The notes below the pieces were generated by a model that saw only the letters and a program-made list of their open reading frames with translations, had not been told where the DNA came from and made no database searches. Made by a program: the position numbers and the translations under genes. Source: Longimicrobiales bacterium (lineage in GTDB: Bacteria; Gemmatimonadota; Gemmatimonadetes; Longimicrobiales; Gaopeijiaceae). From it: a stretch of DNA of 64,000 nucleotides. Positions 23,495-50,900 of this stretch are shown piece by piece. Numbering within the stretch: the stretch's first letter is position 1; every line of letters begins with the position of its first letter. The DNA lies in contig OX638356.1 of the NCBI GenBank assembly GCA_951813395.1, forward strand, positions 3,918,501-3,982,500, given 5' to 3'.

Positions 23495-23543
23495 GCTGAC
23501 CCCCGGGGACCCCCGGACCCCGGGGCAGTCCCCCGGCGTCAGC
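23495..23543. terminator. GC-rich hairpin between convergent genes
   Basis: The arms 23495-23516 and 23522-23543 pair over about 22 positions with roughly four mismatches; the outermost block is GCTGAC/GTCAGC. It lies between the sucA stop and the MFS stop, slightly overlapping the latter. No long T-run follows, so Rho-independent function is plausible but not certain. The sequence is also a cluster of GGGGACCCCC-type repeats. Confidence 0.5.
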
Positions 23544-24855
23544 CCCTTTCGGGCACCGCGATCCCGTATTGCGACAGCGTCGCCCTCAGCGTGGGACGGC
23601 CGAGGCGGACCCGGCTGTCGTCGAGCAGGAACGAGAAGACATAGCCGGCACCGAGCATCAGGATTCCGATCAGGAAGCAGTACATGACCGCCCGGTCCGG
23701 GTAGGTATCCTTCAGGTACCCCACATACATCGGTCCGATGATCCCCGCCGCGGACCAGGCCGTGAGCACGGCCCCGTAGATCTTCGACATGTTCCTGGAG
23801 CCGAAGACGTCGACGATGAACGACGGCATCGTCGCGAAACCGCCCCCGAAGCAAAGCAGCACGTAGCAGACGAGAACCGAGAAAATCCAGGGGTTGGAAT
23901 TGGTCATCAGGATGCCGAACACCACCATCTGGCTGGAGAGCAGGATCCTGAACACCGCGACGCGGCCAAGGCGGTCGGACAGCAGTCCCCAGAAAATCCG
24001 ACCTGCCCCGTTGCACAGGGAGCTGACCGCGATGAGCGTGGCTCCGTATTCGGCAAGGGTCGCGGGATCGATCGAGGGGTCGGCCAGCCCCCAGACCTCC
24101 TGAAGCAGTTCGGACTGGAAGCTGATGACGGAAATGCCCGCGGCGATGTTGAAGAAGAACACGATCCACATGATCGCGAACTGGCTGGTGCGCAGGTACG
24201 GCGCCGCGGGCTCCACCTTCGGCGCCGGCGCCCGCGGGGAGGTTGGCCGCCGCTCGGATGCGGGCTCCGGCGGATCGCGCAGCACCAGGCTGCTCGGAAT
24301 CAGGATGCAGGCGAAGACGATTCCCAGCCACAGGAAGACAGCCTGCAGGTCCCCCTGAGCCTGTACCACGAGAAGCGGGGCGAGACCCTTGCTGAGCAGG
24401 AAGGCCCCCACGCCGAACCCCATCACCACGATGCCGGTGACCAGCCCCTTCCGGTCGGGGTACCACTTGGCCGCCGTCGCTACCGGCGTGACGTACCCCA
24501 GGCCGATCCCCGCCCCGCCGATCACGCCGTACCCCAGGTAGAAAAGCCAGATCGAGTCCAGTGACAACGCCAGGCTCGCGACCAGGTAGCCGGCCGAAAA
24601 AAGGCAGCTGCCCGTTACGGCGAGGAACCTGGGGCCGACCCTGGGCAATGCCTGCCCCGCCAGGGCCGCCGACACTCCCAGAGTGAAGATGGTGATGCTG
24701 AACGCGGCGGCCGTCTGGCTGAAGGTCCAGCCCGAGTCCCGCACCAGCATCGTCTGGAAAAAGCTCCAGGCATACACGGTCCCCAGACATACCTGCAGAA
24801 CGGTACAGAAGAACGCGATGACGCTCCTCGGCACCCGGGTGGCCTGTGCGGGCAC
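23539..24855 (-). CDS. OFA-type MFS transporter
   Basis: About 438 residues and twelve predicted membrane segments, with the central loop rich in Pro, Ala and Ser. The N-terminal stretch LQVCLGTVYAWSFF and the GYGVIGGAGIGLGYVTPVATAAKWYPDRKGL region are characteristic of the oxalate/formate antiporter (OFA) family, which moves small carboxylates. I place the start at GTG 24855, one nucleotide after the stop of the receptor-like gene; a TTG at 24897 would overlap it by 41 nt. The coupling to a substrate-binding protein and receptor suggests all three respond to the same compound. The substrate is unknown. Confidence 0.82.
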   Translation of the reverse strand: MPAQATRVPRSVIAFFCTVLQVCLGTVYAWSFFQTMLVRDSGWTFSQTAAAFSITIFTLGVSAALAGQALPRVGPRFLAVTGSCLFSAGYLVASLALSLDSIWLFYLGYGVIGGAGIGLGYVTPVATAAKWYPDRKGLVTGIVVMGFGVGAFLLSKGLAPLLVVQAQGDLQAVFLWLGIVFACILIPSSLVLRDPPEPASERRPTSPRAPAPKVEPAAPYLRTSQFAIMWIVFFFNIAAGISVISFQSELLQEVWGLADPSIDPATLAEYGATLIAVSSLCNGAGRIFWGLLSDRLGRVAVFRILLSSQMVVFGILMTNSNPWIFSVLVCYVLLCFGGGFATMPSFIVDVFGSRNMSKIYGAVLTAWSAAGIIGPMYVGYLKDTYPDRAVMYCFLIGILMLGAGYVFSFLLDDSRVRLGRPTLRATLSQYGIAVPERG

Positions 24856-24856
24856 G

Positions 24857-25633
24857 CTAGTCGTCGCCTCCAGCTCCTCTCCCCTCGTCCTTCGCAAAAG
24901 CGAGGTCGTCGGCTACATACCGCATCAGCCGGGCCATGTCACCGATCTCGTCGTCGCGGACCAGGACGTCGCCGTGCGTGCTCCTGTCGCTCTCCCTTTC
25001 GCGGGCCAGCGCCACCACGTACTCCAGCAGTTCGGTCAAGGGCCTCGACGCGAGGTTGACCAGCCAGATCGACGCAAGGACACCGGTGACCAGGATGATG
25101 CACAGGAGGTAGATCTGCTGGCCCACCGCGCGCTGGATCTTGAGCCCCAGGCGTTCCAGGTCCATTCCCACGTGAACCGTTCCCGCCACGCCCGACAGGA
25201 TCGGACTCCCCACCTCGACGAAATCCCCCAACCCCGGCAGGCTGTGCTCAACGGGCTCGGTGGCCGACGGGTCGCTGGCCAGAATCTCCTCGGGAATCCC
25301 GGGAATGAAGGTGTGGGCCAGGTACTCCCCGGTGTCGCTGGTGATGTAGATGTACCGGATGCTCTCGATCTGGACGAACTGGTCGATCAGGGACTGCAGT
25401 GTAGCGAGGTTTCGATTGAGCAGTATGTCCACGCTGGAATCGGCAATGTTCTTCGCGATGCTCTCACTGTTGCTCACGTACTCGTCCCGCAACTCGCGGG
25501 AGACCGACGAGATCGACAGGATCGAGATCGCCAGCACCACTATCCCGAAGAGGGCGAAGAAACCGAACCGCGTCTTGCGAAAGAGCTTTCGAACCTTGAG
25601 GGTTTCCTCGCCCTTCTGGATCACGGGTGTCAT
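24857..25633 (-). CDS. Two-TM receptor-like protein with HAMP-like linker and no output domain
   Basis: 258 residues. TM1 lies at about residues 20-40 (FGFFALFGIVVLAISIL). A periplasmic domain of some 125 residues with Cache-like features follows (IRYIYITSDTGEYLAH, GTVHVGMDL). TM2 is at about 166-190, then a HAMP-like segment (RPLTELLEYV, DEIGDMARLM) to the C-terminus. No kinase, cyclase or methyl-accepting domain follows. ATG 25633 overlaps the stop of the binding-protein gene (ATGA) and the stop is 1 nt from the MFS start. It may sense ligand with the binding protein and gate the carrier or a distant kinase; this is inference. Confidence 0.75.
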   Translation of the reverse strand: MTPVIQKGEETLKVRKLFRKTRFGFFALFGIVVLAISILSISSVSRELRDEYVSNSESIAKNIADSSVDILLNRNLATLQSLIDQFVQIESIRYIYITSDTGEYLAHTFIPGIPEEILASDPSATEPVEHSLPGLGDFVEVGSPILSGVAGTVHVGMDLERLGLKIQRAVGQQIYLLCIILVTGVLASIWLVNLASRPLTELLEYVVALARERESDRSTHGDVLVRDDEIGDMARLMRYVADDLAFAKDEGRGAGGDD

Positions 25634-27030
25634 GAGACGGGGAACCTGCCTTCCCAATCGTCGAGAGGAACGAAGCGCTCACCCTCGGGGACGGTGTAGT
25701 AGACCCTTTGCAGCCCCTGGCGGCGGTTGGGACCGAAGCGCACCTGCTCGCCGACCCCGAGGTCGTAGTTGCGCACGGCGAAGACGGCCTCCTGGATCCC
25801 GGATCGCTGTGGGTTGTCACCCATGCGCCGAATGATCTCGGTGATCAGCTTGGCGTTGACGAACCCCTCCAGGCTCACGAAGCTCTGGGGAAAAGTGGTA
25901 TACGGTTCGCCGGGAGTAATCCGCTCCACGTCCTCCGGCGGCGGAGGATCGTAGCGTGCCATCAGTTCGTGGTACTCGCGAACGGCGGGGAGTGAGGTAT
26001 CCTCGTAGCTCGGGACCACCTGCGAGTTGACCAGGAAACGGGTGTGTGCATCGGCATCCGCGCGTCCCTCGCGCATCAGCGCCAGGAGGTTCTCGCTGCC
26101 CACGAAAGACACGTTGGCGACCGGAATGTGGAGTCCGAGATCCTCGGCATCCCGGGCGAAGGCCGCGCAGGCCTGGTAGGCGCCGATGCAGATCACCGCG
26201 TCCGGAGACCGCGCCTGCAGGATCTCCACCTGCCTGCGCATGCTTGCCCCGAACTGCGTGCCGCGCATGTAGGTCGCCTCGCCGGCGATGGTTTCGCTGT
26301 GCCGTGCAAGTGCCTCCCGCACCCCCGCCCAGCCGCTGCGCCCGTAAGCGTCGTTCTGGTAGAAGACCGCAACCCGGCGGCGCCCGATGTTCAGAAAGTT
26401 GTCGACCAGACCGGCCGTCTCCTGCCGGTAGGATGCACGCAGGTTGAAGGCGAACTCGCCATACGGAGGCTCCCGCTGGGGTTCGGCTCCGGTGAAGGGG
26501 AAGAAGAGGTAGACCTGCTGGTCGCGGAATTTCTTCAGCACCGGGAGCGCCCTGGTGACTGTCGGAGTGCCAACGTAGTTGAAGAGCAGGAAGACCGTCT
26601 CGTCCTGGATGAGCTCGATCGTGTTGGCGACGCAGGGATCGGGCTGGTATCCGTCGTCGAGGAGCTTCATCACGATCCGCCGACCGTTGACCCCGCCGTT
26701 CTCGTTGACGTGGGTGAAGTACGCCATGGCGCCGCGGTAGAGTTCGGTGCCAAGTCCGCGCGAAGGCCCGGAGAACGCAGCGGACACACCCAATACGATC
26801 TCGTCGTCCTGTAGCGTGGCGGCCGCACGGTCGTGCGGTCCCGGATACGGGCGGGCCCCGATCGCCCCGAGCTTTCCCGCCCATGGGGCCGCCATCAGCG
26901 CCCCGAGACCCGAGCGCACAAGTGACCTGCGGGTCAGCGTGCCCGGCCGTTTCTGTCGCACCTCGCCCTCTCCTCCGCCGCCAATGCGAGTCTTCACCTC
27001 AGAATCCTCTTTTCCCGAGAACAAGCTCAT
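25630..27030 (-). CDS. Tat-exported Leu/Ile/Val-type periplasmic substrate-binding protein
   Basis: 466 residues of the type I periplasmic binding-protein fold (LivJ/urea/amide-binding group). The N-terminus holds a twin-arginine motif TRRSLVRSGLGAL, implying export of a folded protein. The core reads IVLGVSAAFSGPSRGLG, NENGGVNGRRIVMKLLDDGY, FLLFNYVGTPTVTRALP and VAVFYQNDAYGRSGW. No ABC permease or ATPase genes are adjacent; instead a receptor-like protein and an MFS carrier follow with overlapping or abutting ends. It therefore may feed a sensor rather than an ABC importer. The ligand is probably an amino acid, amide or small carboxylate. Confidence 0.85.
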   Translation of the reverse strand: MSLFSGKEDSEVKTRIGGGGEGEVRQKRPGTLTRRSLVRSGLGALMAAPWAGKLGAIGARPYPGPHDRAAATLQDDEIVLGVSAAFSGPSRGLGTELYRGAMAYFTHVNENGGVNGRRIVMKLLDDGYQPDPCVANTIELIQDETVFLLFNYVGTPTVTRALPVLKKFRDQQVYLFFPFTGAEPQREPPYGEFAFNLRASYRQETAGLVDNFLNIGRRRVAVFYQNDAYGRSGWAGVREALARHSETIAGEATYMRGTQFGASMRRQVEILQARSPDAVICIGAYQACAAFARDAEDLGLHIPVANVSFVGSENLLALMREGRADADAHTRFLVNSQVVPSYEDTSLPAVREYHELMARYDPPPPEDVERITPGEPYTTFPQSFVSLEGFVNAKLITEIIRRMGDNPQRSGIQEAVFAVRNYDLGVGEQVRFGPNRRQGLQRVYYTVPEGERFVPLDDWEGRFPVS

Positions 27031-39186: not shown

Positions 39187-42114
39187 TCAGAAGTTCACGG
39201 AGAAGTTCAGGATGAGGATCCTCGGTGGCGCCATGTTGTAGTACTCGTTCGGAGTGGAGTCCCCGAACCCGTTGTCGTTCGCCTCGGGGTCCAGACCGCG
39301 GTAGTTGGTCCAGGTCATCAGGTTCTTGCCGGCAATCCCGACCTGGGCGCTCCGCGCACCCGGCACCAATCCGTCGGGCAGGCGGTACGTGACCGAAGCC
39401 GAGCGGATCTTGAAAAAGTCCGCCAGATCGGTCCACATGCCCTGGTCGGAGTACGGGCCGATGCACCGGGCGATGTCGCGTGCCGGCAATCCCATCTGCG
39501 CGACCCGCGAGGAACCCGACCCACTGAGCGAATAGTACATGTCCTGAATGGCTGGACACCCGTCACCGGGCCACACGCGCCTGCGCACATTCTGATACGC
39601 GATTCCGATGGGCCGGACCATGCCGTACTGGCCCTCGCCAACCAGGTCGATCGTCAACGCACGCCAGAGGGTCAGCCGAGTGTTGAGACCTACCGTCTCG
39701 GTGGGAAACAGGTTGCCAATCATCCCCTTCTCGTAGTCGGGAAGCTCACCGATCGCATCGGCATTCGTGAGCGTATCGTCCCAGCGGATCCATAGCGGAT
39801 AGCCCAGCTGACGCGAGGTTCCCAGATCCTCCAGGGGACCGAGATCGGTGATTTCGCTGTCGTTCGTTGTGAAGTTGACACCGACGTCCCACTCGATGTT
39901 CTCGGTCCGGACGGGCACGAAGTTCACCATGGTCTCGGTGCCCCAGTTCTTGACCTCGCCGAGGTTGCGCCAGGTGCATTCCTCCGTCCCGCCGGACGGT
40001 GCCTCCTGCACGCAGATCAGCGCGTCCCGCGTTGTCTGGTCGAACGCCGTGAAATCGACGATCAGACGTCCGCCCAGGAACGACGCGTCCGCTCCGAACT
40101 CCAGCTCCGTAGACACTTCGGGCCCCAGATCCGCGTTGCCGAGATTGGCGATAATGACGGCGGGCACCTGCTCGTCGGCGGATGTCGCCTCGTAGGTGCG
40201 CTTGGCGTCGAATGCACCGGGCGCCTTGCCGGACTGGCCCCATGCGGCCCGCAACTTGAAGGTTTCGGTCCAGTCGAAGGGGAAGAAGTCCTCGTCAGAG
40301 ATGGTGTAGGCAGTTTGTAGCTTGGGATAGGCGGCGAGACCGAAGCCCTCGCCGAACGTGCTGAAGCCGTCCCACCGGATCCCGCCGGTCACGAAGAGCT
40401 TGTCGTTGAGCCCCAGGACTTCCTGCACGAAGAAACCGCCGCTTCTCTCAATGATTCGGTTCTCGAAAACCCGCGGGTTGTTGCCATCGCCCAGAACCTG
40501 CTCACCGGGTCCGGCGAACAGTTCGTCGAAGCCGTTGAGCGTGTAGTTGAACTCCTCGTATACCTGGCCTCCCCACGAGAAGTCCGAACTGACGTTGTTC
40601 AGCGGACTGTACGAGAAGGTGCCGCTGTAGTCGAAGGTCAGATTGCGGTCGAATTGCTGATCGATCTCGCGGTCCCCGGTCGCTTCCTCATAGAAGCCCC
40701 AGCCCTTGAAGTCCACGAAGTCCGACGAAGTGTAGTCGATTCCCACGTTCATCCGGTGGGAGAACAGACTGTTCGGCGACCATCCAACCGAGAGGCTGGT
40801 CACATACTGATCGAGATACGTGAAGATCTGGTTTTCCAGGACCAGGGAGTCGTCGTTGCCCGGGGTGTAGCCCCGGTCCCCGCGCAGCACGTTCAGGTAC
40901 AGACCCGACGCGTTGTTCCCGTTGGGAATCCAGGTGATGTTCCGGCGCGCATAGCTGCTGTTCAACTGCAGGTTGAGCCCCTCGGCCGGCTGGAATGTGA
41001 TGTTGGCGCGGACGTTGTAGTTGTCCGCCCCCTGCGGCTCGACCACGCCTTGCCGGTCGCCGTACTGCCCCGACACGAAATAGGTCGCGTTCTGTCCGCC
41101 GCCCCGCACGCTCAGGTTGTACACCTGGTGGTGGGCGTTTCGGAACCAGCTTCCGCTTTCCGGACAGCCCGGTTCATCAACACCGATCTCACCGGTCTGG
41201 TGGTTGAGGATGCCGGGATCACGGCAGGTGTTGAGGAACAGCCCCGAGGGATTCACGTCGGCGGCGGGCCCCTGATGCGGCATCATGCTGATACCCTGCT
41301 CGAGGGTGGCGGACCATGCCGGAGCCCCCGCGACGCCGCGCTTGGTGAAGATCTGGATCACGCCACTCGAGGCCTCGGTGCCGTACAGCGTCGTGGCGGC
41401 GGGCCCCTTGATCACCTCCATGCGCTCGATATCCGCCGGGTTGATCATGTCGAAGGCAGAAGGAGTCTGAGCGCCTTCGTCGTCCGCGCCGATCGGGTTG
41501 TTCTCGAGACGGATCCCATCGACGTAGATGAGCGGGTTGTTGCCCTGCTGCAGGGAGTTGTTGCCGCGCAGCCGGATCTGGCTGGCCGCGCCGACCTGCC
41601 CGCTGTGGTCGTTCACCTGGATCCCGGTGGTGCGTCCCTGCAACACGTCGCCGAAGTCGGTCACAGCCGTGTACTGAATGTCTTCGGCGACGATCGAGCT
41701 GATGCTGTTGCCGACCTCGCGCCTGCGCGCCTGCCCCGCCGTGCCGGTCACGACAACGCCCTCGAGAGCGATCGCGTCCTGGCGGATGTTGAAATCCGCC
41801 GTCGCTGCCCCTCCGGAGGGAACCGTCACCGTAAGTTCCGTGCTGCCGTAACCGATGAGATCGACTCGCACGGTCTGCTCGCCGGCAGGGACGTTCACGA
41901 GCAGGTAGCGACCCACGTTGTTGGTCAGCATCCCCAGCGTCGTCCCGGCGATGGAGATCTGGGCGCCAGCCAGCGGCGCCTGGCTGACCGCGTCTCTGAC
42001 GCTCCCCGTCACCGTTCCGATCTGCGCGGCCAATTGGGCGCTGCCGACGGTGAGGAGGAACGCGGCCCCGAGCGCCGCCATGCGCACGGTGCCTTTCGGT
42101 GGAAGAAGCCGCAT
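39187..42114 (-). CDS. SusC/RagA-like TonB-dependent receptor, locus A
   Basis: 975 residues: signal peptide, a carboxypeptidase-regulatory-like beta sandwich (about 33-115, GTVTGSVRDAVSQAPLAGAQ), a plug domain (about 120-245, with REVGNSISSIVAEDIQ, NPLIYVDGIRLENNP and TLYGTEASSGVIQIF), and a beta barrel ending in Phe (LNFSVNF). It imports large ligands through the outer membrane with energy from TonB. ATG 42114 follows AAGGAGGG at good spacing. It lies 197 nt downstream of a hypothetical gene and 14 nt upstream of SusD. No anti-sigma or ECF sigma gene is beside it. Confidence 0.93.
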   Translation of the reverse strand: MRLLPPKGTVRMAALGAAFLLTVGSAQLAAQIGTVTGSVRDAVSQAPLAGAQISIAGTTLGMLTNNVGRYLLVNVPAGEQTVRVDLIGYGSTELTVTVPSGGAATADFNIRQDAIALEGVVVTGTAGQARRREVGNSISSIVAEDIQYTAVTDFGDVLQGRTTGIQVNDHSGQVGAASQIRLRGNNSLQQGNNPLIYVDGIRLENNPIGADDEGAQTPSAFDMINPADIERMEVIKGPAATTLYGTEASSGVIQIFTKRGVAGAPAWSATLEQGISMMPHQGPAADVNPSGLFLNTCRDPGILNHQTGEIGVDEPGCPESGSWFRNAHHQVYNLSVRGGGQNATYFVSGQYGDRQGVVEPQGADNYNVRANITFQPAEGLNLQLNSSYARRNITWIPNGNNASGLYLNVLRGDRGYTPGNDDSLVLENQIFTYLDQYVTSLSVGWSPNSLFSHRMNVGIDYTSSDFVDFKGWGFYEEATGDREIDQQFDRNLTFDYSGTFSYSPLNNVSSDFSWGGQVYEEFNYTLNGFDELFAGPGEQVLGDGNNPRVFENRIIERSGGFFVQEVLGLNDKLFVTGGIRWDGFSTFGEGFGLAAYPKLQTAYTISDEDFFPFDWTETFKLRAAWGQSGKAPGAFDAKRTYEATSADEQVPAVIIANLGNADLGPEVSTELEFGADASFLGGRLIVDFTAFDQTTRDALICVQEAPSGGTEECTWRNLGEVKNWGTETMVNFVPVRTENIEWDVGVNFTTNDSEITDLGPLEDLGTSRQLGYPLWIRWDDTLTNADAIGELPDYEKGMIGNLFPTETVGLNTRLTLWRALTIDLVGEGQYGMVRPIGIAYQNVRRRVWPGDGCPAIQDMYYSLSGSGSSRVAQMGLPARDIARCIGPYSDQGMWTDLADFFKIRSASVTYRLPDGLVPGARSAQVGIAGKNLMTWTNYRGLDPEANDNGFGDSTPNEYYNMAPPRILILNFSVNF

Positions 42115-47946: not shown

Positions 47947-50900
47947 TTAGAAGACGAGCTGCATTGAGAACGTGTAGAACGCCGGCGGCGGAACGTGCTC
48001 GGTCATGCTGCGCACCCGCGTATTGTAGCCGACGTTGCCGCCAACCTCGGGATCCAGCGTCCGCATGAGCGGATCCACCCACCGGAAGAAGTTCCGGCCC
48101 GAGAACGTGACGGTCGCGCGCGACGCACCAACCATGTTCGCCCACGCGTCCGGGAGAGGCGCCTGTGCGCTCACCTCGCGGATCTTGAAGAAGTCGGCAG
48201 GCTGCACGGCGAAGTCGGACTGATAGAACTTCAGGTCACAACGCGCCCGCTCCTCGGCGGTCAGAGCCGCGTACCCCTGGGTCTCCCAGGTGTTGTACGC
48301 CTCGAAGCATCCCGCCCACCTCACCGAACGGCGGGTCGCGGCGGCCTGCGGCCCGTTGTACATGAACGCTCCGCCCTGATACTCCCCGCGCGCGGTCAGG
48401 AGAATGCCCGCCGGAAGCCCGAAGGTCATGCCGAAGCCCGCGATGGTGGTTGCCTGGTTCGGTCCGTGGACGCACTGCTCATCGGTCCGGTCAAGGATGA
48501 TCGGGTCGGCGCGTTCGTCAGGATTGGCAACGCAGTCGGACCGGATGACCGGCGCCGGATAGCCTTCCGACACCCAGCCGAAGCCGCCGATCGAGAACTC
48601 GGGCGATCCGCCGAGCGAAACGATTTCGGAGTCGGTCAGGGAAAGGGTCCCGTTGACGTCCCAGGTCCACGTGTCGTTCCGGACAATGCTGTAGTTCAAG
48701 CCGAGCTCCAACCCGTTGTTGACGAGTTCGCCCACGTTGGAGAGCTGGGAACTCGTAAAGCCCAGCGACGGGACCTGGAGCACGCTGAAGAGCGCGTCCT
48801 GGGTCGTCTGGGCGAAGTAGGTGAAGTCGAGGGCGAGCCTGTCGTCCACGAACGAACCCTCGAAGCCGAGTTCCAGCTCGGAGGTGGTCTCGGGACCGAT
48901 CGTCGCGTTGCCCACGTTGCTGGGCAGGAAGGCGGGCACCCCGCCCCAGCCGGCCGCGGAGAAGGTCCGGACCGCGTCGAAGGCGCCGGGAGCGCGTCCC
49001 GCCTGACCCCAGGCGGCGCGCAGCTTCATGCTGCCCCAACCGTCCTCCCAGAAGTCCTCGTCGGAGATGACGTAGGAACCCGAAACCTTCGGGTAGGCCT
49101 GCAGCCCGAAGTCGGCACCGAATGCGGAGTTGCCGTCAACCCGCAGGCCGAACGTGACAAAGTACTTGTTGGAGATGTCGAAGACGTTCTGCACGAACAG
49201 GCCGGCGTTCACAATCCGGGTACGGTCCTCGAAGCCCAGTGTGTTGCCCGCGTTGTCCACGTCGGGATCGCCGGGCCCGGGGAAGTTGTCCCCGTAGGCG
49301 GTCGTGCGCTCACTGCGGGTGGTCACGCTCTGCCCGCCGAAGGAAAGCGCCGAACGGATTCCCATGGGAAGGCTGAAGTCCAGGGATCCGACGTAGTCCG
49401 CCGTGAGCGTATTGAACTCGTAGCGTGACGTGGCGAGGATCCCCGTGGGGGCCCGGATGAAACCGAAGGGCCGCAGGTTGCGGTTGTCCTGCTGGGCCAG
49501 GTCGTACCCGACGCTGAAGCGGTTGGAGAAGTTCGCCAGCGGCGAGTACGTGGCCGTCAGCCCCGTGATCAGGTGATCGATCTGAGTAGTGATCTCCTGG
49601 TTGAGGAAGGGGTTGATGGCGTTGAAGGACTCGTCGTTGAGGTAGTTGCGGTCGCGCCGGAAGGTGTTGAGCGTCATCCCGTGCGCGTTGTTTCCGCCCG
49701 CCGTGTGCGCCAGCTGGTCGTTCGTGTACGACGTATTCCACTGGAGCTGCAGTGATTCCATGGGATTGAAGGTGAAGTTGCCCCTGAGGATGACCTTCTT
49801 CTCGTTGTCGTTGGGCAGAACACCGTCGTCGTCCTCGTAGGAGGCCGACACGAAGTACCTCACGGTCTCGGCACCGCCGCCCACGTTGAGCGCGTACTTC
49901 TGCTGGTACGCGCCCATGTCGCTGAAGAGGCCGCTGTCGCACGGCTGGTCCTGAACCACGATCGCGTCGCCGCACATCGGCTTGTGGCCGCGGAGCCAGG
50001 GATTGATGAAGAGGAAATCGGAACGCCCGCCGGACAGCGAGGTCGGATTCTCCGACGGCGGCCTCAGCGCCGGATCCGGGCCGAAGGTCAGGTTGCGCGA
50101 TACCCCCTGCTCCAGCTGGCCCGTCCAGGTGGCGTCGCCGACGCTTCCGCGCTTGGTGAAGATCTGGATCACCCCGGCGGAAGCCTCGGTGCCGTAGAGT
50201 GTGGTGGCGGCCGCGCCCTTGATCACCTCCACCCGCTCGATGTCCTGCGGGTTAACGCTGTTGAGCGGGCTGGAGACGTCGTTGTTGCTGCGCCCGGAAT
50301 AGCCAACAGGCGGCACGTTCTTGGCAAAGCCCTCGCTGCGGACCCGTACCCCGTCGATGTAGATGAGGGGCTGGTTGGACTGGGTCATCGACACGTTGCC
50401 GCGCAGGCGGATCATCGCCCCGCCGCCGGAGCTCGCCGAACTCTGCGTGATCGACATGCCGGGAATGCGGGCCTGCAGCAGCGCGTCGACGTTGGTCGGC
50501 GGTCCCACTACCTCCTGCTCCACATCGAGCTGCGAGATCGAGTTGCCGACCTCGCGGCGGCGCGCAGCCCCGGCCGTCCCGGTCACGACGATCTCGTCGA
50601 GGCCCAGGGCCTGGGCCGCGATCGCGAAGTCGTGCTGCGTGGTCGCACCCGAGGTGACCGTGATCGTCGCCTCGGCCGACGCGTACCCGATGCGCTCGGC
50701 GCGGATCGTGTAGTCTCCCGCCGGCACGTTGAGGATGACGAAGCGGCCGTTGTCACGGGAGAGGGTTCCCAGTCCGGTGCCATCCAGGTACACCTGGACG
50801 GATCCCACCGGCTGGCCACTCGTCCCGTCGGTGACCGTGCCCGTAACCGCCCCGTCCTGCGCCTGGGCGGCGCCCGGGATGGCGAACGCGGCCGCGAGGA

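Follow-up and report, generated by a model that had tools for sequence, protein, structure and literature searches.

The window, by which we mean the whole 64,000-nucleotide stretch of Longimicrobiales bacterium DNA that was analysed, contains three translationally coupled genes on its minus strand. BP (25630..27030) encodes a 466-residue binding protein of the Peripla_BP_6 family (LivJ-type, type I) with a Tat-type N-terminus, SCH (24857..25633) encodes a 258-residue protein comprising a transmembrane (TM) helix, an sCache_3_2 ectodomain, a second TM helix, and a HAMP-like segment with no output domain, and MFS (23539..24855) encodes a 438-residue carrier of the OFA/SfMCT monocarboxylate type that begins at GTG. 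All three frames are real at these coordinates. The BP stop codon and an SCH ATG share the sequence ATGA (25630..25633), so SCH probably starts at 25633 rather than at the TTG at 25657. The GTG of MFS lies one base past the SCH stop, and an alternative TTG at 24897 overlaps SCH. The frames, Pfam, and NCBIfam agree with the layout proposed in a sequence-only reading of this DNA (a LivJ-type binding protein overlapping an outputless two-TM protein that abuts an OFA-type MFS carrier), and the coordinates given there stand except for the start of SCH, which had been placed at the TTG.

The BP sequence matched Peripla_BP_6 (PF13458) with 128.8 bits against a cut-off of 31.7, and its predicted fold was nearest to 4kv7 (Z 42.1, rmsd 3.3 over 362 residues); together these matches point to a LivJ-type binding protein fold. 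The N-terminus contains TRRSL, which is Tat-like. By motif, 103 of the 136 BP N-termini that could be read carry [ST]RRxx, and the 25 inspected among the other 33 have TRK. Tat is the probable export route. BP is not confined to the cassette. A close paralogue, BP2, precedes a TonB receptor gene in 11 genomes, one of which (G012) lacks the cassette, and a distant homologue in the window's own genome adjoins a full HAMP sensor kinase with an RR-SpoIIE protein; similar neighbours are found in other phyla. Taken alone, BP may be read as part of a branched-chain amino acid importer. PMC10581226 reports that transporters for these amino acids are common among Gemmatimonadota that are marine or live with hosts, and part of that signal could be due to this cassette.

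For SCH, the Pfam match to sCache_3_2 (37.7 bits, cut-off 28.4) was accompanied by a HAMP match of about 15.3-15.4 bits, below the cut-off of 25. Among 52 SCH members, sCache_3_2 was matched in all 52 and HAMP in 18 at E<=0.1, which makes the earlier label of HAMP-like a fair one, and Pfam detected no output family (HisKA/HATPase, MCP signal, or GGDEF) in any of them. SCH thus has the periplasmic Cache domain of a sensor kinase or chemoreceptor but lacks the output domain. The frame measured 238-283 residues at 79 of 80 genome_contigs loci (the best 80 of 192 relatives, which also served for the spacing and neighbour-group counts below), so the missing output domain is not a sequencing error; the sole exception, L107, has a 358-residue SCH frame with a shortened MFS frame and looks like a frameshift. 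Conservation, expressed as mean majority fraction, was 0.70-0.87 in the TM, Cache, and HAMP helices and 0.28-0.32 in the linker and tail, and in the HAMP helices the P and R-x-D-x-x-G positions do not vary, down to members that are only 42-49% identical. The predicted SCH fold resembled the N-terminal half of WalK (Z 13.5, rmsd 4.1 over 237 residues), and thus the TM-Cache-TM-HAMP order of a WalK-type sensor, but SCH stops after the HAMP-like helix, a segment that was modelled poorly (pLDDT 48-68). Resemblance to CitA/DcuS-type sensors was also seen. L063 and L253, two full-length relatives whose match covers the Cache region, are kinases, each with a gene for a PhnD-type binding protein next to it; this would suit a Cache domain in SCH that docks a binding protein. 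The SCH profile found no match at E<=1 among PDB sequences and no relative on viral contigs; on plasmids SCH retrieved one chemotaxis protein (31% identity) and no triad, and the L063 kinase retrieved only general kinases.

The carrier matched MFS_1 (112.7 bits) and the NCBIfam model NF049980, "L-lactate MFS transporter" (333.8 bits, equivalog cut-off 320). This cut-off was passed by 5 of 11 cassette carriers scanned (the window, L125, L210, L217, and L252) and the other six fell at 272.9-319.2 bits, so for the clade as a whole the assignment to this model is borderline. The cassette carrier belongs to the same family as the OFA L-lactate carrier SfMCT (6G9X), which was characterised alone in E. 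coli (PMC6573034). In an HMM alignment of 76 sequences (75 of the 80 loci plus the window, the set also used for the tree), the carboxylate-binding residues R280, N276, and Y119 of SfMCT correspond to R286, N282, and Y121, which are invariant in 76/76. The two differ at Cys362, which is Trp in the cassette carrier, and at the proton-site His250, which is Phe in all 76, with an alignment gap just after it; energy coupling may therefore differ from that of SfMCT. From these residues the substrate is most likely a monocarboxylate; the family name alone suggests lactate, and no lactate enzyme was seen among 20 triad neighbours scanned. The MFS clade is confined to cassettes: 52 of 53 high-scoring places accompany SCH and the remaining one lies at a contig edge. 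Searches of relatives gave 34 places at 745-864 bits (33 with SCH, and the one at the contig edge). In one order of Gammaproteobacteria the scores were bimodal, with 19 places at 500-803 bits, all 19 in triads, and 20 places at 197-230 bits outside triads.

The genes BP, SCH, and MFS occurred in the same order and on the same strand at 146 of 146 loci with an SCH relative (42-100% SCH identity), representing 108 distinct SCH stretches, with some genomes present twice. Fourteen weak rows (L063, L064, L226-L235, L237, and L253) had been dropped before counting, and none showed BP or MFS. Such constancy is more than chance. The distance from BP to SCH was -4 or +1 nt at 70 of the 80 best loci (-4 at 34, +1 at 36), and that from SCH to MFS was -4 to +15 nt at 70 of 80. 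Homologous triplets, which the sequence-only reading had proposed to look for, thus occur at all of these loci, and their conservation lends support to its core idea that a secondary carrier is linked to a binding protein and a receptor lacking any output domain. That reading had also named two arrangements that would speak against it: an ABC permease in place of MFS was absent from every triad examined, and a receptor frame continuing into a kinase was sought among SCH relatives at the loci examined and not found, so kinase continuation is rejected.

Flanking genes vary between clades. No neighbour group was common to more than 16 of the 80 best loci, and no conserved neighbour beyond related clades offered a clue to the substrate. 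A scan of 20 neighbours covered the window and 13 other loci; these neighbours belonged to unrelated Pfam families (among them peptidases, a zinc dehydrogenase, an isocitrate/isopropylmalate-type dehydrogenase, an aminotransferase, a glutamate synthase domain, and a xanthine/uracil permease) or, in four cases, to none; no ABC gene was among them. Neither a linked kinase nor a linked ABC permease was seen at the triad loci examined. At L141, a TonB-dependent receptor gene related to the partner of BP2 lies directly after MFS.

There is good support for the three proteins acting as a unit. We propose that this unit is a binding-protein-dependent, receptor-gated MFS carrier, an interpretation to which we assign an even chance. 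BP, probably exported by Tat, would catch a small solute in the periplasm and, once loaded, dock onto the sCache ectodomain of SCH; SCH would use its two TM helices and HAMP-like segment to relay the change to MFS, which would open or take up more of the solute, most likely a monocarboxylate. No kinase would be needed, because the output of SCH would be the carrier itself. If true, the HAMP-like end acting on the carrier would give a Cache sensor an output that is direct and free of phosphorylation. The sub-threshold and poorly modelled HAMP segment, the occurrence of BP outside the cassette, and the replacement of His250 by Phe count against this reading.

Conserved linkage alone cannot separate gating from delivery or scaffolding. 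SCH might be a docking subunit that places loaded BP over MFS with no signalling, so that BP passes its substrate to the carrier in the way that TRAP and TTT binding proteins supply theirs; the cassette would then be a third type of tripartite secondary importer that depends on a binding protein. The fixed triad at 146/146 loci suits this arrangement, and BP2 beside a TonB-dependent receptor in 11 genomes, together with the receptor gene after MFS in L141, fits a capture-and-import chain; a pure dock, however, would have no need of HAMP helices, which are conserved (P and R-x-D-x-x-G) at 42-49% identity, and we consider this explanation rather unlikely. It is more doubtful still that SCH reports BP occupancy through its HAMP-like end to a kinase or chemotaxis protein encoded elsewhere, with MFS the regulated transporter of the same operon. 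The WalK- and CitA/DcuS-like predicted fold and the full HAMP kinase with RR-SpoIIE beside a distant BP homologue in the same genome, with similar neighbours in other phyla, favour such reporting, but no kinase or chemotaxis partner is linked in the triads inspected. The genes around the cassette also change from phylum to phylum, so that one and the same unlinked partner would be required everywhere, which makes one less likely.

The membership of BP in Peripla_BP_6 and the LivH/LivM-family permeases of the window's own genome could indicate that BP supplies a LivHMGF-type ABC importer encoded elsewhere and that MFS is an unrelated carrier. Each of the two permease pairs has its own binding protein nearby, however (a Peripla_BP_6 protein at L300:275-1570, approximately 4 kb from LivM, and a Bmp protein at L299:8867-9952), and the scanned neighbours contained no ABC gene, so an ABC importer in trans is weakened to the point of being highly improbable. 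Degradation of a kinase to a remnant that is carried along between BP and MFS with no present role would account for the weak HAMP match, but SCH is conserved in length and residues and is enclosed by the triad in each of the 108 distinct stretches; we regard this as the most improbable of the four.

Compared with HAAT/LivJ ABC importers, the cassette has SCH and MFS after BP in 146/146 loci rather than ABC permease and ATPase genes. The TRAP (DctPQM) and TTT (TctCBA) systems are three-gene, ATP-independent sets of a binding protein, a secondary carrier, and a further membrane protein. The cassette shares this composition but differs in its MFS carrier, LivJ-type binding protein, and sensor-derived third protein (Cache, HAMP-like); Pfam detected no TRAP or TTT family in the window's triad, only Peripla_BP_6, sCache_3_2, and MFS_1. 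Since TRAP and TTT secondary carriers use binding proteins (PMC9602780), the earlier statement that such proteins normally serve ABC importers or full sensors is too narrow. An MFS-based type would lengthen the short list of binding-protein-using secondary carriers (TRAP and TTT) named in that source.

With respect to sensing, SCH may be compared with membrane receptors that respond to a binding protein. In TorT-TorS and LuxP-LuxQ, the binding protein acts on the receptor ectodomain, and by analogy BP may act on SCH in the same manner. A further parallel is BctC-BctE, in which a TTT binding protein signals to a kinase and sensing is coupled to the carrier (PMC9602780). The receptors of all three systems have a kinase domain and work at the level of gene expression, whereas SCH has no such domain. 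Direct control of MFS carriers by a partner is documented for EIIA-Glc on LacY and for MFS proteins fused to CBS, PAS, or UspA (PMC10710835); those partners are cytoplasmic or fused, whereas a periplasmic BP and a transmembrane receptor are proposed here. No description of a BP-receptor-MFS triad was found in the literature searched, a body that leaves most subscription journals outside its coverage. The cassette may represent a new means of assembling or switching a transporter and, being compact and self-contained, is testable in a laboratory host. In its broadest form, the proposal is that BP switches MFS through a sensor-kinase-derived receptor whose sole output is the carrier, so that a self-contained cassette, passed between phyla and with many apparently sponge-associated hosts, senses, gates, and imports without phosphorylation or transcription and constitutes a new transporter class; we hold this tentatively, at somewhat below an even chance.

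Record titles place the triad loci in Gemmatimonadota, Acidobacteriota, Gammaproteobacteria, Binatota, Latescibacterota, and Verrucomicrobiota. GenBank titles are partly wrong (L077, titled Gammaproteobacteria, matches contig G083:C27 from a genome of the window's family), so changes of phylum label on the tree only suggest transfer of the cassette. The cassette is rare across Pseudomonadota as a whole, where the only one of 398 genomes to have it was the centre genome of the search, and Acidobacteriota gave 14 strong matches in 297 genomes. At least some of the hosts come from marine sponges.

The cassette described by the sequence-only reading was borne out in the window as three consecutive frames on the minus strand, with slightly changed start codons. 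A Tat-type LivJ-like binding protein (BP, 25630-27030; Peripla_BP_6, N-terminus TRRSL) is followed by an outputless receptor-like protein (SCH, 24857-25633; two TMs around sCache_3_2 and, at the protein's end, a weak match to HAMP) and by an OFA-type carrier (MFS, 23539-24855; MFS_1, above the NCBIfam L-lactate carrier cut-off). An ATGA overlap joins BP and SCH, and a GTG for MFS lies one base past the SCH stop. The cassette is flanked by an M28 peptidase upstream and by a convergent 978-aa frame downstream, which we take to be 2-oxoglutarate dehydrogenase E1.

Homologous triplets, which that reading proposed to seek in other genomes, were found at every locus pooled: including the window, BP, SCH and MFS stand in order on one strand in 146 of 146 loci (108 distinct SCH stretches, some genomes having been fetched from two collections). 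SCH was matched in 35 of 148 related genomes (33 strongly, including the window's own, and two weakly), and the triad was in order at 32 of the 34 places fetched outside that genome, the exceptions being the two weak matches, L063 and L064. When each species was represented by one genome, the scan gave 192 relatives, and all of the best 80 lie in ordered triads, some cut by contig ends. In a gammaproteobacterial order (196 genomes), all 19 strong SCH places among the 30 listed are triads, including members with SCH identity down to 42-49%; one genome there (G283) carries three diverged cassette copies, on contigs C60, C61 and C72. In Acidobacteriota (297 genomes) the same holds for all 14 strong places among the 15 listed. 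Among 398 genomes sampled across Pseudomonadota, the cassette was present in the sample's centre genome only, and its distribution is therefore patchy.

In a tree of the joined proteins, Gammaproteobacteria (L129, L135 and L141) sit beside Acidobacteriota, and Latescibacterota titles sit among Gemmatimonadota titles. These placements are read as a hint at transfer between phyla, since GenBank titles are unreliable; L130 and L135 are, by title, chromosome-level records. One locus (L077, G083:C27) is titled Gammaproteobacteria in GenBank, yet its genome belongs to the window's own family, and the same error may affect several SB and RHO MAG titles that the tree places close by. Isolate names of the jk18x type occur in 20 titles of the best 80 of the 192 relatives, and many other titles (SB06.., RHO, COS, APA, IRC, Plut) presumably denote sponge or coral MAGs. 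In PMC9531527, jk18x names are used for Ircinia sponge MAGs, and jk18x7bins.13, named there, is L122.

Gene spacing is tight across the same 80 loci, with start codons picked nearest to the preceding stop: BP and SCH are spaced by -4 nt at 34 loci and by +1 nt at 36, SCH and MFS by -4 to +15 nt at 70. Conservation does not extend to the flanks, where the most widely shared neighbour group is found at 16 of 80 loci. Twenty neighbours scanned from 14 loci belong to unrelated families or to no family, and the sole signalling protein among them is one LuxR-type regulator. Distance matrices of BP, SCH and MFS correlate at 0.83-0.89, which shows co-inheritance, as joint inheritance predicts, and is no demonstration of contact. 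The BP frames of L072 / G005:C41 and L238 appear broken (one internal TGA; two frames), with SCH and MFS open.

The carrier clade is exclusive to the cassette. In the gammaproteobacterial order, each of the 19 MFS places scoring 500-803 bits lies in a triad, and none of the 20 scoring 197-230 bits lies at an SCH place. Among the relatives, 34 places scored 745-864 bits, of which 33 are in SCH genomes and the remaining one, in G145, lies at the edge of a contig, and a further 10 scored 147-251 bits; the window's own genome, a single contig of 4.09 Mb, has one MFS matching the cassette profile. Residues were mapped by alignment with SfMCT, a characterised L-lactate carrier, using binding residues from PMC6573034. 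On this mapping, the counterparts of SfMCT Y119, N276 and R280 are Y121, N282 and R286, which all 76 cassette carriers aligned possess; K377 and D378 are retained, and H250, F359 and C362 are replaced in all 76 by F, L and W, respectively. Because the equivalent binding residues are invariant, the substrate is likely a carboxylate and the same one across the main group, lactate or another. The NCBIfam L-lactate carrier cut-off was passed by 5 of the 11 cassette carriers scanned.

At E<=0.1, sCache_3_2 was detected in all 52 SCH members and HAMP in 18. The predicted SCH model has a mean pLDDT of 73.2 (48-68 in the HAMP region) and a pTM of 0.51; it matches WalK along 237 residues with Z 13.5, and its Cache part matches CitA and DcuS. 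The Cache motif H-T-F-x-P-x-x-P is present in 17 of 17 rows of a set including the most divergent members. Weak relatives with a similar motif, over the Cache part, are the sCache-HAMP kinases of L063 (1741-4509 with its upstream gene) and L253, in two phyla; since a PhnD-type binding protein gene (assigned by Pfam in L063, by eye from the translation in L253) lies directly upstream of each, these two cases suggest that binding proteins dock on Caches of this type. The Cache region of SCH aligns (Z 10.0) with residues 352-507 of PDB entry 5ere, a solved 'extracellular ligand binding receptor'; judged from these residues alone, 5ere may be a naturally occurring fusion between a binding protein and a Cache domain.

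SCH might merely dock BP at the carrier, or it might gate the carrier. We favour gating because the HAMP helices and key positions are conserved beside an unconserved linker and tail, which speaks against a mere dock, and because no other signal-taking protein is linked in the triads examined. Of the earlier proposal that a solute-sensing chain may regulate the carrier directly, the conserved three-gene unit stands, and gating by SCH is a step that we infer beyond it. There is a real chance that the cassette is a new class of transporter.

The solved structures nearest BP are 4kv7 and 3lop, whose titles name no ligand; some of the further matches are entries with a keto acid, an aromatic acid or an amino acid, a range that does not fix the ligand. 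In 11 Gemmatimonadota genomes (L178-L188) there is a second BP, sharing 68-74% identity with the window BP over the match and directly followed in all 11 by a TonB-dependent receptor (in one case split into two frames, in another truncated by a contig end), as at L180:4000-11662; L180 and L181 have an additional such receptor before it. One genome (G012) has the second BP and lacks both SCH and the cassette MFS. The own-genome member of a third, distant class, 38% identical to the window BP, has a HAMP histidine kinase on one side and a SpoIIE-phosphatase response regulator (RR-SpoIIE) on the other (L148:6545-11222), and comparable sets occur in further phyla. Neighbours were scanned for seven further BP relatives (eight genomes reached via cassette loci): a HAMP protein adjoins those of L197, L198, L200 and L203, and three of these HAMP proteins carry a TorS-type sensor domain (that of L198 just below the cut-off); L200, with a TorS-type kinase, also has RR-SpoIIE and anti-sigma-type (RsbW-like) ATPase neighbours; and the neighbours at L205, L206 and L207 are unrelated. 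Since second and distant BPs adjoin TonB-dependent receptors or HAMP proteins, this line often accompanies receptors, beyond ABC importers. The own-genome LivH/LivM-type locus has a Peripla_BP_6 protein of its own, and a Bmp protein accompanies the other permease pair. Window stretches at 41170-42087 and 50137-50862 (minus) show 26-30% similarity to the TonB-dependent receptors accompanying the second BP, and in a gammaproteobacterial MAG (L141:9176-11791) a TonB-dependent receptor gene, at 39% to those same receptors, lies directly 3' of the cassette MFS.
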